The position numbers and the translations under genes were made by a program. Under the pieces are notes generated by a model. That model made no database searches. It was given only the letters and a program-made list of their open reading frames with translations, and was not told the origin of the DNA. Positions 29,656-36,874 of a stretch of DNA of 43,521 nucleotides are shown here, one piece after another. The DNA is taken from contig JAPYPT010000006.1 of NCBI GenBank assembly GCA_029937535.1, positions 1-43,521 on the forward strand, written 5' to 3'. The DNA comes from Alphaproteobacteria bacterium (GTDB lineage Bacteria > Pseudomonadota > Alphaproteobacteria > GCA-2731375). The stretch's first letter is position 1. Every line of letters begins with the position of its first letter.

Positions 29656-31336
29656 GGCCGTGCATTTCCCCCCTGCCCTGATCCTGTTCGCGGGCGCCTT
29701 CCTGCTGCCGTTCCTGCGCGGCACGCCCCGCCACGCGATTGCCTTGGCCGCGCCCCTGCTGACCCTGTGGGCGGTCTGGGGGGTGCCCGACGGCGTCGCC
29801 CTGGGCCTGCCGTTCATGGAGTATCAGTTGCAGGTGGTGGAAGGGGATAGGTTGAGCCGTCTGTTCGGCACCATTTTCACCATCATGGCCTTCACGGGCA
29901 CCCTGTTTTCCCTGCGTCAGGGAAGCCGTTTGGAACTGCCCTCCGCCTTCGTCTATGCGGGCGGCGCGGTGGGCGTGACGTTCGCCGGCGACATGATCAC
30001 CATGTTCATCTTTTGGGAGCTCATGGCGGTCGCCTCCACCGCCGTGATCTGGTCCCAGGGGGGGGCGACGGCCTATCGCGCCTCCATGCGATACGTGCTG
30101 GTACATCTGTTCGGCGGCGTGGTTCTGATGGCGGGCATCGTCGGCGTGGTGGCGCAGACCGGCTCCATTGAGTTCGGGCCCATGCAGACGGACAGCCTGG
30201 CGACCTGGCTGATCCTGATCGGCTTTTTGGTCAACGCCGGCGCACCGCCGTTCTCGGCCTGGCTGCCCGATGCCTACCCCGAGGCCTCATGGTCGGGCAC
30301 GGTCTTTCTTTCCGCCTTCACCACCAAGACGGCCGTGTATGTTCTGCTGCGCGGTTTCCCCGGCGCCGAGATCCTGATCCCCATCGGCAGCTATATGATT
30401 TTCTACGGCATCATTTATGCCCTGCTGGAAAACGACATGCGGCGGATCCTGTCCTATTCCATCATCAATCAGGTCGGCTTCATGGTGGTGGGCATCGGTA
30501 TCGGCACGGAATTGACCTTGAACGGCGCCGCCGCCCATGCCTTCACCCACATCATCTACAAGGCCCTGTTGTTGATGTCGGCGGGCTCGGTGCTGTTGAT
30601 GAGCGGCGGCGTGCGCCGCTGCACGGACCTGGGCGGCCTGTTCAAGACCATGCCGTACACGGCCACCATGGGCATCATCGGCGCCCTGGCGATTTCGTCG
30701 TTTCCCTTTACCTCCGGCTTCATCTCCAAATCGATGATCGCTCAGGGGGCGGCGGATCAGCGTATGTTCTGGGTCTGGATGGGGCTGGCGGCAGCCTCGG
30801 CGGGGGTCTTCCTGCATGCGGGCATTAAATATCCCTGGTATGTATTTTTTCAAAAGGATTCCGGCCTGCGGCTGCAGGACCCGCCACTGAGCATGAAGTT
30901 GTCCATGGGGCTGTTCGCGTTTCTGTGTATCGGTTTGGGGGTGAACCCGGAACCGCTGTACGCCATTTTGCCCTACCCGGTGGACTACGTGCCCTACACC
31001 ACCGGCCATGTGGTCACCATGCTGCAATTGTTGCTGTTTTCCGGCCTGGCCTTCTTCATCATGCTGCCCTACATGAAGCGGACCCTGACCATCACCCTGG
31101 ATTTCGACTGGCTGTATCGAAAGCTGTTCCGTATCGCCGCCCGCGAAGCGGCCGAGCGTTCGGCAACGGCCCATACGGCTGCCTTCGAGGACGCCGAGAA
31201 ACGCCTCGCGCAATTGATTGCGCGCATATTCCGCACCCACGGCCCGCACGGCATCCTGGCCCGGACCTGGCCCACGGGCAGCATGGTCCTCTGGGCCGCC
31301 GTATTATTGGCGGTGTCGTTGCTGATTTATTATTAA
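29648..31336 (+). CDS. Mrp-type antiporter subunit D-like protein, third copy
   Basis: A 562-residue pumping-subunit paralogue starting at a GTG overlapping the small membrane gene. The TM5 glutamate is kept in FIFWELMAVAS (Glu124) and the TM8 lysine in SAFTTKTAVYVLLR (Lys227). The position of the TM7 lysine is asparagine: GFLVNAGAPPFSAWLP (Asn196) where the other copies have LKAALFPLHLWLP and GKAALMPLHRWLP. The C-terminus is extended, with LDFDWLYRKLFRIAAREAAE, an amphipathic stretch and a final helix, reminiscent of the long C-terminal extension of NuoL-like subunits. It is the last gene of the operon. It may be a structural or altered-coupling subunit. Confidence 0.87.
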   Translation: MIEAVHFPPALILFAGAFLLPFLRGTPRHAIALAAPLLTLWAVWGVPDGVALGLPFMEYQLQVVEGDRLSRLFGTIFTIMAFTGTLFSLRQGSRLELPSAFVYAGGAVGVTFAGDMITMFIFWELMAVASTAVIWSQGGATAYRASMRYVLVHLFGGVVLMAGIVGVVAQTGSIEFGPMQTDSLATWLILIGFLVNAGAPPFSAWLPDAYPEASWSGTVFLSAFTTKTAVYVLLRGFPGAEILIPIGSYMIFYGIIYALLENDMRRILSYSIINQVGFMVVGIGIGTELTLNGAAAHAFTHIIYKALLLMSAGSVLLMSGGVRRCTDLGGLFKTMPYTATMGIIGALAISSFPFTSGFISKSMIAQGAADQRMFWVWMGLAAASAGVFLHAGIKYPWYVFFQKDSGLRLQDPPLSMKLSMGLFAFLCIGLGVNPEPLYAILPYPVDYVPYTTGHVVTMLQLLLFSGLAFFIMLPYMKRTLTITLDFDWLYRKLFRIAAREAAERSATAHTAAFEDAEKRLAQLIARIFRTHGPHGILARTWPTGSMVLWAAVLLAVSLLIYY

Positions 31337-31574
31337 TTGGAGTATTATCACAGGAAATAGAATGAAACTTATGCATGCGGAAATTCAATCGATAGTTTTG
31401 TTATCTGACCAATAATGACATGATCCGTTCCTTAATTTTAATTTGGCCTCTTAACTCTGGATCTCGACCAAAAGCGTTCAATAATGCTATATTTCAAATT
31501 CGCGCTTTGCTCTTGTTAGAGAAAACAAATGATATTAGGTAATTCAGGTAGCTGGCGTTTTAGGGGAGAAATTT
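31337..31574 (+). promoter_or_regulatory. A/T-rich intergenic region ahead of the low-GC gene island
   Basis: About 238 bases of clearly lower GC than the antiporter operon. The composition change begins right after the mrp stop codon, marking the likely left edge of an acquired segment. AGGGGAG (31562-31568) is the ribosome site of the next gene. I see no gene, tRNA or target-site repeat in it. Confidence 0.45.
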
Positions 31575-31862
31575 ATGCCTGAGAACGAACCCTCAGTACT
31601 TGCCGATTTAGCAGAATCGGCATTTGGACCCGACGTAGCAGAAATTTATTCCAATACCTATTACATGAGCGTCACTGATTTCGATATCCGCCTTGCATTT
31701 GGTACTCTGAAATCGTCGGCGAATGGTACCACCTCGATAAATCGTATAACGACCGCAGTCCATCTTGATTACAAGCTAGCCAAGGATCTTGTTAAGAACA
31801 TGGAGAAAATGATCGAGATATACGAAGCGGTATATGGACCAGCAGATATAATCATCAGATAG
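31575..31862 (+). CDS. Small DUF3467-like protein
   Basis: A 95-residue protein of low-GC composition. The pattern PDVAEIYSNTYYMSVTDFDI followed by RLAFGT and, later, TAVHLDYKLAKDLVKNMEKM resembles DUF3467 proteins, in which a YxNxxxVxxxxxDFxLxFG strand pair is followed by a helix that ends in xxYExxxGP. No function is known for that family. AGGGGAG precedes the ATG. It is first in a run of three same-strand genes with nine bases to the next. The family match is by pattern recognition only. Confidence 0.65.
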   Translation: MPENEPSVLADLAESAFGPDVAEIYSNTYYMSVTDFDIRLAFGTLKSSANGTTSINRITTAVHLDYKLAKDLVKNMEKMIEIYEAVYGPADIIIR

Positions 31863-31871
31863 AAAAACCAA

Positions 31872-32456
31872 ATGCACCAGCGAGCCATAGCGTCTGCAAT
31901 TCAGGACTATCAAAATAATTTTGCCGAGGCAAAATCCAGTACACTTGGTAAATCAAGATTCTCTCGTGATGGCGTCAACTATATTGTTGCAACGCCGCGA
32001 ATTTCTACTGTGAACCGTGCCGGGATTTCACCGGCTCATGGATTTGTTAGTCAGTTCGCCCGGCTTCATGTCCAACCGATCGATGGATGGCTTGACACCG
32101 CGCTTGTTGAACTATCTGAAGCAGATGATGAATCTGTTGAAGAGGAGTTCGCGCCGTGCTCCGACTTGGCCAAAACAAACGCTGCGACAATATTGGCAGA
32201 TTTAGCGAATTTTATCTTGATTGCACCAACAGTGTATCCAACATCAGATCAGGAAATTGCCATACAATTCCGTCCTGATGGTAGTAGAGCCTCGGTGCTC
32301 ATACTGTGTGATTCCTCCGGTGGCGGCGTTTGTTTTTCCTTTATCGAAGGAAAAAATCGACGGGCGCGGTTTGACGACGCCGCTGATCTACCAGCAGGAT
32401 TTGTGGTGGCGGAACTACTGAGGCTAAATGTAGCGCCCTCAGATGCCGAAAATTAA
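31872..32456 (+). CDS. Uncharacterised protein of the low-GC island
   Basis: A 194-residue hypothetical protein. The N-terminal part (QFARLHVQPIDGWLDTALVE) and a C-terminal part (IAIQFRPDGSRASVLILCDS then GGGVCFSFIEGKNRRARFDD) look like two small beta-rich units. There is no signal peptide, transmembrane helix or recognised catalytic motif. It lies nine bases after the DUF3467-like gene and overlaps the next gene by 14 bases, so the three are probably one transcript. Codon use and A/T content differ from neighbours, which suggests transfer. Confidence 0.7.
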   Translation: MHQRAIASAIQDYQNNFAEAKSSTLGKSRFSRDGVNYIVATPRISTVNRAGISPAHGFVSQFARLHVQPIDGWLDTALVELSEADDESVEEEFAPCSDLAKTNAATILADLANFILIAPTVYPTSDQEIAIQFRPDGSRASVLILCDSSGGGVCFSFIEGKNRRARFDDAADLPAGFVVAELLRLNVAPSDAEN

Positions 32457-32868
32457 GAGCCTACCCCCGCTAAATACAAAAGATGTTCTTGGGCGCGGCA
32501 TCTTCTCCGGGCGCAGAGCAAAACGGGCAGCAAACAACAATATCAGCCACGATCTTTTTCTCGAAGCAGAAGGTGCATTCAGCCTTTCTGTAGATCGATT
32601 AGATCATGAATCCAACGAAACCATGGCCGAAATCGGCGACCGCACGGCATCACTCAGAAATAAGAAATTTTTTGGGTGGGCGACGGTAACCGTGACACAA
32701 GCTTCGGAAGGTGATCGATCAGTCCAAGAAACACCAAAATTGGATAACATTTTTCATGCAGATATATTTCTTAATATTCCAGCTGGTTCGGAAAGGCGTG
32801 ACCAAGAGAAACAACAGGCAAACGAACTGGCTGCCGTTGCCAAATGGCGACAACGTCCGACCGACTAA
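32443..32868 (+). CDS. Uncharacterised protein paired with the preceding gene
   Basis: A 141-residue soluble protein of unknown family. Recognisable segments are an N-terminal basic motif (GRGIFSGRRAKRAANN), a central FSLSVDRLDHESNETMAEIG and a C-terminal KKFFGWATVTVTQASEGDRS followed by NIFHADIFLNIP, with a charged helix at the end. The His/Asp in HADI and the SVDRL motif look like conserved functional positions, but this cannot be tested here. It overlaps the previous gene by 14 bases, indicating translational coupling and a shared function. Confidence 0.7.
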   Translation: MPKIKSLPPLNTKDVLGRGIFSGRRAKRAANNNISHDLFLEAEGAFSLSVDRLDHESNETMAEIGDRTASLRNKKFFGWATVTVTQASEGDRSVQETPKLDNIFHADIFLNIPAGSERRDQEKQQANELAAVAKWRQRPTD

Positions 32869-32955
32869 TTTATCCAAAGTTGGCAATTTTCCATACTATG
32901 TTCAGAATCATGAAAGTCACGATCGGTATTGGAAAAACCGCTGAGATTTGGAAGT

Positions 32956-33453
32956 TCAGCCGTTCGAGATTCGGCAGGAAATTTGCCAGCTGACTTGTCC
33001 GTTGCCCGATAACTTATCGTAATTCAGGCGTTCTTTCTTTGCCTGTTTTCGCAGTAAGGCGTCCAGTTGGTCACGAATTTCCGGGTCCAGATCATCCGCT
33101 TCCAAGGTAATCGTCATGGGCAGCTTTTTGGTCCGCTTCGCCGCCGGCCGTATCGCCGGCTTGGCGGCTGTTTTGTTCTTTCCCTTGCTGAAGATGCCAT
33201 CCCAACCGGAACGGTAATCGTCCGTTGAAACGGATGAAAAATAGCTTATGGGCCGGCTGGAGGCGGAGGACGCCTTGGCGCCACCATTACTACCGCCGCT
33301 GTCACCGCTGTCGCCGCTGTTGCCATCACCACCGTCGCTGTCGGTGGACGGTTTTGTCTCGGTGGAATCCGCTTTCGCGGTTTCTGCCTTCGGTGCCGGA
33401 CTCTCAGCTTTTTTGGGTTTCGTATCCGTCTGGGTCTTGGGTTTTGTTGCCAT
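32956..33453 (-). CDS. Protein with Lys/Ser/Gly-rich disordered N-terminus
   Basis: A 165-residue protein. The first 65 residues are low complexity: a Lys/Pro/Ala/Thr-rich stretch, then an Asp/Gly/Ser-rich run (DSDGGDGNSGDSGDSGG), likely disordered. The C-terminal 55 residues (from about PMTITLEADDLDPEIRDQLD to the end) form a conserved-looking folded unit rich in charged residues. No signal peptide or membrane segment. Composition returns to the usual high GC, so the island ends before it. Function unknown. Confidence 0.65.
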   Translation of the reverse strand: MATKPKTQTDTKPKKAESPAPKAETAKADSTETKPSTDSDGGDGNSGDSGDSGGSNGGAKASSASSRPISYFSSVSTDDYRSGWDGIFSKGKNKTAAKPAIRPAAKRTKKLPMTITLEADDLDPEIRDQLDALLRKQAKKERLNYDKLSGNGQVSWQISCRISNG

Positions 33454-34741: not shown

Positions 34742-35041
34742 TCAGGCAGCGGGGCGGCCGGCTTTCTTGGTGAGGTCTTCCCATGACTGGCCGGTCGCGA
34801 TAACGCAGGTGCCGCCATTGGGTTTGGTGTAGATCATGGTCCAGCTACCGCCTTTCGAAGCCAGTATCTCGATCAGGGTGCCATTACTGGATAGGCCTAG
34901 CGACACCGGCTGTTCGGCGTAGTCCTTGCCCAATTTCAGCAATATCTTGTCCCGCTCGCCGCAGGGCACGCGTTGTGCCTGGGCAAGGCTGGGCGCCAAA
35001 GCGACAGCGGCGGCAGCAGCGGCGATCAAAATGCGTAACAT
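34742..35041 (-). CDS. Small secreted protein with two cysteines
   Basis: A 99-residue protein with a clear signal peptide (MLRILIAAAAAAVALAPSLA, cleavage probably after QAQ). The mature part of about 76 residues contains two cysteines (VPCGERDKILLKLGKDY and GGTCVIATGQSWE) that probably form a periplasmic disulfide. AAGGGA precedes the ATG. It has the look of conserved small periplasmic proteins of alphaproteobacteria, without a known function. The inverted-repeat element lies 80 bases upstream of the start. Confidence 0.75.
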   Translation of the reverse strand: MLRILIAAAAAAVALAPSLAQAQRVPCGERDKILLKLGKDYAEQPVSLGLSSNGTLIEILASKGGSWTMIYTKPNGGTCVIATGQSWEDLTKKAGRPAA

Positions 35042-35764
35042 GTTTCCATCCCTTCAGGCTTGATCCGGGCGTGATGAACGCCGCGAATTATGCAACAGAT
35101 TTATGCCGGCCTAGGCGAAGTATATCGGGAGCGGTCTTGTTGGAGGGGGCGAAGCCATAACGATACTCATACTCGGATACGCAACTCGGATACTCTTTAC
35201 ATAGGAATTGTGGCTTCCAATCCCGCTCCCGATAATTTGAAACAGATACTACGCAACAACCTAAGTCCAACACGGGTACTCAACGCAACAACAGGAGGTT
35301 TTTTGAATATCTAAACAAACAATCTCCGAACTAACTTGAGCATTATGGCAATAAAGGTAATAATAAATAGTTAACGTTCTGAGAAAAATTGTTAACACGA
35401 AATAATTGATGTTAAAAATTCGAAATTTCACATGAATTACACAAAGTCACAAAAATGTTATTCTTATGTAATCAAATTTACACGGAATTTAATGTTACAA
35501 AATTGACATATTAGCGGAAATTAGCTGATTTTTCCAATCCAGCGATAAATTTTTCTTGTTTTTGTAACGTGACCCCGGAACGCCGAATGTTGGCTCCTCG
35601 ATTGACTTTCCACGTAGTTTCCAAGGAATTCGTCATATGCCGATGGCTCACGGGAAAAAAATCACAGAATTTTGGCCCCGGTGGGTTCTCCTACATCGAC
35701 CGAAACGGCATTCCGTTGCTACAATGGGGCAATTCAATTCGTCCAAACGGGGAGATATCGGCAA
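35042..35764. other. Long non-coding, mostly A/T-rich region upstream of adhC
   Basis: About 720 bases without a convincing gene. It holds a 112-bp inverted-repeat element (35123-35234, listed separately), then roughly 35290-35570, an extremely A/T-rich stretch (44 G/C among the 180 bases at 35341-35520, about 24%). This contrasts with about 60% GC elsewhere. Two GTTAAC palindromes (35370-35375 and 35391-35396) lie 21 bases apart. The final part runs into the ribosome site (GGGGAG) of adhC. Short open frames here show no coding signature. Confidence 0.6.
35123..35234. repeat. 112-bp element with 12-bp terminal inverted repeats
   Basis: TATCGGGAGCGG (35123-35134) is a perfect inverted repeat of CCGCTCCCGATA (35223-35234). 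Inside, GAAGCCA (35151-35157) is a perfect inverted repeat of TGGCTTC (35211-35217). The loop carries two direct copies of ACTCGGATAC (35171-35180 and 35184-35193). It could fold as one long RNA hairpin or be a small mobile or MITE-like sequence. No clear target-site duplication flanks it. Confidence 0.75.
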
Positions 35765-36874
35765 ATGGAAGTACGGGCAGCCGTGGCGCACAAGGCAGGC
35801 GCGCCGCTTACCATCGAAACGGTTCAACTGGATGGTCCCCGGGCCGGCGAATGCCTGGTGGAGATCAAGGCCAGCGGGGTCTGTCATACCGACGCCTTCA
35901 CCCTATCGGGAGATGATCCGGAAGGCCTGTTTCCCGCCATCCTGGGCCACGAAGGCGCGGGCGTGGTGGTCGAGGTCGGCGCCGGCGTGACATCCCTGGC
36001 GCCAGGTGACCACGTCATCCCCCTCTACACACCGGAATGCCGGCAATGCGAATTCTGCACGTCGGGCAAAACCAATCTGTGCGGCGCGATCCGGGAAACC
36101 CAGGGCCAGGGTCTGATGCCCGACGGCAGCTCCCGCTTCAGCCTGGGCGGCGACCAAGTCTTTCATTACATGGGCACCTCCACCTTTGCCCAATATTCGG
36201 TGATCCCGGAGATCGCCCTGGCCAAAATCCGCTCGGATGCCCCGTTTGACAAGGTCTGTTACATCGGCTGCGGCGTCACAACAGGCATTGGCGCCGTCAT
36301 TAACACTGCCAAGGTTGAAGCCGGCGCCAATGTGATCGTCTTCGGCCTGGGCGGCATCGGGTTGAACGTTCTACAGGGCGCCCGCATGGTCGGGGCCAAT
36401 ATGATCATCGGTGTTGATACCAACCCGGGCAAACGCGACTTGGCGGAAAAATTCGGCATGACGCATTATGTTAACCCAGCCGAGCTTGGCGGCGATCTGG
36501 TCCCCCACCTGGTTGAAATGACCAAGGGCGGAGCCGATTACTCGTTCGAATGCATCGGCAATGTGGAGGTCATGCGCCAGGCACTTGAATGCTGCCACAA
36601 GGGTTGGGGCGAAAGCATCATCATCGGCGTTGCCGGTTCGGGCCAGGAAATCAACACCCGGCCGTTCCAACTGGTCACCGGCCGGGTCTGGCGCGGCACC
36701 GCGTTCGGCGGCGCCAAGGGCCGCACGGATGTGCCGCGGATCGTGGATTGGTACATGGATGGCAAGATCAACATCGACGACCTGATCACCCACACCATGC
36801 CGCTAGAGGAAATCAACAACGCCTTCGACCTGATGCACGCGGGCAAGTCAATCCGCAGCGTGGTGACTTTCTAG
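35765..36874 (+). CDS. adhC: S-(hydroxymethyl)glutathione dehydrogenase / class III alcohol dehydrogenase
   Basis: Zinc-dependent class III alcohol dehydrogenase of 369 residues, which oxidises S-hydroxymethylglutathione (the formaldehyde adduct) with NAD. It has the catalytic zinc ligands in [14 protein letters not shown] and LGHEGAGVV, the four structural-zinc cysteines in [15 protein letters not shown], and the NAD-binding [18 protein letters not shown] with the class-typical VDTNPGKR. The ATG at 35765 is chosen by homology ([12 protein letters not shown]) and a GGGGAG ribosome site; an in-frame codon at 35672 would add unrelated residues. No S-formylglutathione hydrolase or regulator is adjacent. 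Confidence 0.93.

Follow-up and report, generated by a model that had tools for sequence, protein, structure and literature searches.

The A/T-rich island studied here, which lies in the window (the whole 43,521-nucleotide stretch of alphaproteobacterial DNA that was analysed), is in our reading one example of a mobile cassette of three translationally coupled genes, A-B-C, that is widespread and whose most likely role, at what we judge to be about an even chance, is anti-phage and would be exerted through an abortive-infection or toxin-antitoxin-like mechanism that protects bacteria or prophages. The island was acquired horizontally, and the cassette is found again in many phyla, within prophages and next to anti-phage genes already known, which makes it probable that it forms part of an undescribed immunity system. 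The sequence-only reading had proposed a small module with a defence, toxin-antitoxin-like or regulatory role; mobility, recurrence, presence on viral contigs and the company of defence genes all agree with a module of this kind, and from the same setting we infer its defence function. The features of the insert are collected in Table 1.

Table 1. Features of the acquired insert, in window coordinates.
Feature	Coordinates	Strand	Basis
Whole horizontally acquired insert	31336..32957 (1,622 bp)	.	Empty site in G009/L075; GC 0.445, z -5.7
Non-coding leader, presumed promoter-bearing	31337..31574	+	No ORF assigned
Gene A, 95 aa, DUF3467, proposed sensor or stabiliser	31575..31862	+	Pfam PF11950; phrog_7919; 9 nt before B
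Gene B, 194 aa, with a conserved domain of ~110 aa at its C-terminus; proposed adaptor or neutraliser	31872..32456	+	Profile at second-gene position in all cassette loci
Gene C, 141 aa, proposed effector	32443..32868	+	15-sequence alignment; confident model without PDB match; 16 loci

The insert is bordered by an antiporter gene on one side and a convergent gene for a 165-residue protein on the other, and its GC content contrasts with the 0.602 ± 0.027 of all other 1,622-bp windows of the stretch, the lowest of which stands at 0.517; the island had rightly been described as A/T-richer. We searched 11 genomes of the genus, and the closest of them, whose antiporter is 93% identical, has an empty site: there the antiporter gene and the convergent 165-residue gene directly adjoin. 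Alignment of this locus to the window shows the entire insert to be absent, with the flanks meeting within ~1 base. This clean empty site in the nearest relative establishes the horizontal movement that had earlier been surmised. The start first given for the island was correct to within 1 base, whereas its end, placed at 32950, fell 7 nt before the mapped junction; the three ORFs of 95, 194 and 141 residues are present where they had been reported, the last two overlapping by exactly 14 nt. No terminal repeats or target duplication were seen at the insert ends. In the leader, promoter-like matches at positions 31389 and 31464 are weak and their count is within shuffle expectation, and Rfam and tRNA scans gave no match. 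Elsewhere in the window, a second A/T-rich stretch (34750-35900, GC about 0.48-0.50), without a long ORF except that of a 99-residue secreted-looking protein (34742-35041, minus strand), may be a decayed insert.

A four-sequence profile of C, scanned over a GTDB genome collection of 84,980 species, recovered 16 loci, which by the organism names in their record titles belong to at least seven phyla and span several classes of Proteobacteria, Nitrospirales, Vicinamibacterales, Dehalococcoidia, Cyanobacteria, Planctomycetia, Atribacteria and Syntrophaceae. B stands immediately 5' of C at all 16 loci, and a gene in the A slot lies 5' of B at 14, the exceptions being L044, which has no A, and L049, which is decayed; B is frameshifted at L056 and C at L059. 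Genes of this set usually overlap their neighbours by 1-4 nt. Gaps and GC were measured for 18 cassettes drawn from the window, chromosomes and viral contigs: the A-B gaps run from -29 to +10 nt and the B-C gaps from -34 to +6 nt, with -4 the commonest value, and cassette GC lies below flanking GC at 17 of the 18 loci. The window cassette itself has the B domain in its second gene and a C-family gene overlapping B. By these profile matches, B and C are shown to be a conserved pair in many phyla.

Gene B has no confident match in Pfam or NCBIfam, and the sole PADLOC signal of the window cassette links B to the C-terminal region of PDC-M32A, at E 0.031. The B-domain profile matches the window B at E 6e-38, a value that reflects its inclusion in the profile by construction; the unbiased link is that obtained with the window B alone, which found other genomes at E 5e-23 to 1e-14. 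Six of 385 genomes sampled from the class carry B, counting the window's own and one marginal case, and none of 14 other genomes of the order does; a scan of the genome collection with B as a single sequence gave no match. Four further genomes were found via B, among them G323, in which a 134-residue gene, B and C follow in the same order and are equally tight. In G137 (L003) no C occupies the slot after B, and a fragment of DUF4411 (PIN-like) lies ~220 nt downstream (L003:2061-2354).

A second route to the cassette runs through the NCBIfam family TIGR04255, described there as 'sporadically distributed', whose model gave 22 matches in 18 genomes of the class. The window-type B domain profile, iterated over 6,051 translated frames of the collected loci, took in the second gene at 12 of these 22 loci (L026, L028, L029, L031, L033-L036, L038 and L041-L043) and at six of seven viral-contig loci (L067-L071 and L073), with L072 reached at E 0.0024 and zero off-target matches among the 6,051 frames. 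The co-occurrence in unrelated genomes that the sequence-only reading had named as its check is thus seen along both routes. The window's own genus holds one TIGR04255-B-C cassette (L033, in G007). In the window's own genome a TIGR04255 gene is cut by a contig end (L037, G000:C458:3-380), so that this genome may carry a second, canonical cassette.

Gene A had been called DUF3467-like, and it passes the Pfam gathering cut-off for DUF3467 by just 0.9 bits (25.9 against 25 bits, E 1e-5); it also matches phrog_7919, a PHROG of unknown function, at E 4.5e-5, and has no PDB sequence match. Slot A is held by TIGR04255 at L053-L059 and L012, by an unrelated family of ~235 residues (the A7 alignment) at L003 and L045-L048 and, less surely aligned, at L051 and L052, and by a 134-residue orphan at L050. 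DUF3467 was seen in this slot once, in the window only, in the place usually taken by TIGR04255 or A7. Homology of TIGR04255 to A7, and of DUF3467 to TIGR04255, was rejected on hhalign probabilities below 1%, and the L050 protein was rejected as a DUF3467 relative since it scores no higher than shuffles against the DUF3467 profile. On these family assignments, slot A is shown to be exchangeable between unrelated families. What stands of the proposed recurring three-gene set is therefore the B-C pair with an A-slot gene, and not DUF3467 itself, which does not recur. Neither B nor C adjoins the other DUF3467 genes that the class yielded. At L065:387-1277, a DUF3467 gene lies directly 3' of an HTH gene resembling a toxin-antitoxin antitoxin, and DUF3467 may be a partner in other toxin-antitoxin-like modules too. 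A model of the TIGR04255 protein of L058 (pLDDT 89.9) has TBP-like and helix-grip folds as its best PDB matches, at TM values of at most 0.36 that are too weak to use.

Gene C, which is 45-49% identical to the C proteins of L002 and L004, has no match in Pfam, NCBIfam, PADLOC or PDB and no recognisable toxin or enzyme fold. A model built from 15 sequences reached pLDDT 93.8 and pTM 0.86; Foldseek found nothing better than E 0.6 for it in the PDB and a single match of note, with TM 0.42, among viral structures. Six residues invariant in the 15-sequence alignment (R18, S49, R52, D101, N102 and H105) fall on or beside successive strands of the model and form a candidate binding or active site. 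The C profile route led to G517, where TIGR04255 (E 4e-35), B and C stand in order. Among the TIGR04255 loci, the third gene is recognised by the window-type C profile surely at L029 and near threshold at L033, L041 and L042; the next best matches of that profile (L070, L032, L073, L031 and L035) are all third genes, and window-type C genes are among the next best matches of the prophage-type C profile. The kinship of window-type and prophage-type C rests on these reciprocal third-gene matches. A 91% probability from their direct comparison was discarded because the set was contaminated by the window-type L067; without that sequence, a single comparison gave a nearly full-length alignment at E 0.0018 with a probability of only 15%. 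As judged from these profiles, the link of C to the TIGR04255 loci is thinner than that of B.

Known defence genes were detected by PADLOC and Pfam near about four of the 16 C loci by raw count, and the vicinity to such genes that had been proposed as a further check is to this extent observed. The PADLOC neighbours comprise type I restriction enzyme, methyltransferase and specificity genes, HmaB and HmaC, DrmD and DrmA, and HEC-05, and Pfam adds GmrSD. The neighbour scan was pooled and its matches were assigned to loci by sequence inference; so assigned, an Hma-like pair begins 23 nt past C at L045, HsdR and a TIR-like gene lie nearby at L047, and a DISARM-like helicase and GmrSD lie nearby at L049. 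At the cyanobacterial L055, by the same assignment, HsdM and HsdS stand before A and GmrSD and HsdR after C, which would place this cassette within a type I restriction-modification operon. In the same stretch (L055:1-11600), a Cas12k-like gene lies 3 kb upstream of the cassette. Apparent HsdS and restriction-subunit fragments are found just 5' of A at L057 and L054, and toxin-antitoxin genes just upstream of the L058 cassette.

At about ten of the 16 loci the neighbours are mostly ordinary, for example transporters, redoxins and purE. Ordinary neighbours at several loci, together with the lack of a domain of known defence activity and the raw nature of the defence-neighbour count, would suit an operon of ordinary function (metabolism, stress or regulation) that is frequently lost and gained again, in which case its vicinity to defence genes would mean that both collect in variable regions. 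We consider this improbable, because the cassette is very sporadic, as seen in the distribution of B across the class, its GC falls under that of the flanks at nearly every locus measured, and both the prophage placement and the L055 insertion inside a type I restriction-modification operon speak against such an operon.

In the predicted viral contigs of IMG/VR, seven loci were recovered with the TIGR04255 profile; all have A-B-C in order (C is cut by a contig end in L071), and several are flanked by integrase, terminase, portal or head genes. The L073 cassette lies between terminase-like and portal-like genes and that of L070 before head genes, so positioned that both look like accessory genes within phage modules. 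Such settings, and the match of DUF3467 to a PHROG of unknown function, could point to a cassette that serves the prophage or mobile element and has no part in immunity, whether as a phage life-cycle regulator, an element-limited superinfection control or an anti-defence set. Most members, however, are chromosomal with no phage genes around, and a search of 50,697 annotated phage records, at its given sensitivity, turned up no cassette, so that we attach little likelihood to this explanation. Viral scans with the window-type families gave no match, and the E. coli genomes held no near relative of the L068 cassette.

Other partners of TIGR04255 came to light in the same searches. On the Vibrio parahaemolyticus plasmid CP063527.1 (L102, 158-2105), TIGR04255, a 179-residue protein and a zeta-toxin-family P-loop protein are encoded in a row, and the latter two genes overlap; the analogy is loose, since the B profile fails to recognise the protein in the B slot. 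On Crinalium, Thermus and Vibrio plasmids alike, the genes that partner TIGR04255 in the B and C slots were rejected as B or C, having no match to either profile. At L024, L025 and L040, an HTH protein and then a protein bearing the conserved motif 'QTCDIVR' come after TIGR04255, which apparently belongs to a different three-gene set there. At L022 and L023 its partners are again others, proteins of ~214 and ~225 residues that resemble neither B nor C by profile.

These observations also bear on whether the cassette could be a plain stabilising, toxin-antitoxin-like addiction module with C as toxin, B as antitoxin and A as helper, and with no anti-phage role. Three small overlapping genes that are mobile and sporadic would fit such a module, as would the toxin-antitoxin genes just 5' of the L058 cassette and the standing of other TIGR04255 genes with XRE-type HTH genes or zeta toxin. 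Known addiction modules are mostly plasmid-borne, though, and plasmid searches with window-type B and C gave no match; no toxin family is recognised in the cassette, and its setting in or beside restriction-modification, Hma- and DISARM-like genes fits defence better. We therefore regard an addiction module as rather unlikely and retain anti-phage immunity as the preferred reading.

The closest named system by sequence is PDC-M32, a phage-defence candidate in PADLOC-DB that consists of the proteins M32A and M32B; its occurrence in Sinorhizobium prophages is reported in PMC12429752. Over its last ~100 residues PDC-M32A aligns with the B domain (E 2.3e-5 with the B of L002 and 1.1e-6 with that of G083), whereas the N-terminal ~250 residues of M32A are unmatched by A or B, and whole-library scans gave no M32B match for A, B or C of the window or its relatives. 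The window B covers only positions ~253-358 of the M32A profile, in place of the 375-384 positions of a full-length match. With the TIGR04255 family the cassette shares the B domain, which comes next in 12 of 22 class loci and seven of seven viral loci and is then followed by C-like third genes; the window differs in having DUF3467 in its first slot. A literature search returned PDC-M32, named as a candidate, and no description of the cassette, no defence assay and no mention of TIGR04255, with DUF3467 named only in an unrelated context.

The nearest worked-out parallel is CmdTAC, where capsid protein, as it is newly synthesised, draws the chaperone CmdC away from the antitoxin (PMC11618068). 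Both have three small co-transcribed genes, a characteristic of toxin-antitoxin-chaperone systems, both are mobile, and both would combine an effector, here a candidate, with two control proteins under the same proposed logic. We do not claim membership: no SecB-like chaperone is recognised by sequence, a SecB-like fold was rejected for the TIGR04255 occupant of slot A because no SecB occurs among the 50 best PDB folds of the L058 model, and nothing marks C as an ADP-ribosyltransferase or RNase.

Co-translation argues that A, B and C form a complex, and we would guess at the following division of labour. C would be the effector, its conserved R/S/R/D-N/H cluster being a candidate ligand or active site; B would be an adaptor or neutraliser that holds C; and A would be the exchangeable part, a sensor or stabiliser that might set C free once infection displaces it, as in CmdTAC (PMC11618068). 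That A changes while the B-C core stays conserved suggests that A faces a changing partner, hence its assignment as sensor or stabiliser. C is favoured as effector on account of the zeta toxin in the third slot on the Vibrio plasmid, and because other TIGR04255 genes precede an HTH gene and then a different kind of third gene. The L044 locus, which keeps B and C intact and open with A gone, implies that A is not an obligate antitoxin and that, if C is harmful, B alone must suffice to hold it.

A broader possibility, which we advance tentatively and hold to be short of likely, is that the cassette represents an undescribed class of modular anti-phage immunity, present across bacterial phyla and in prophages. 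Its B-C core, conserved and with a new effector fold, would connect to infection sensors that can replace one another (TIGR04255, DUF3467 and two or more further unrelated proteins), and the TIGR04255 sensor would in turn serve other effectors, including a zeta-toxin-like kinase. If the anti-phage reading of the cassette holds, it would give a shared context and a testable role to TIGR04255, to the B domain (which also ends PDC-M32A), to a C family without a solved fold and to some DUF3467 proteins. It would add a widespread mobile immune cassette to the known list, and its interchangeable first gene would amount to a natural experiment on wiring one effector core to different triggers.
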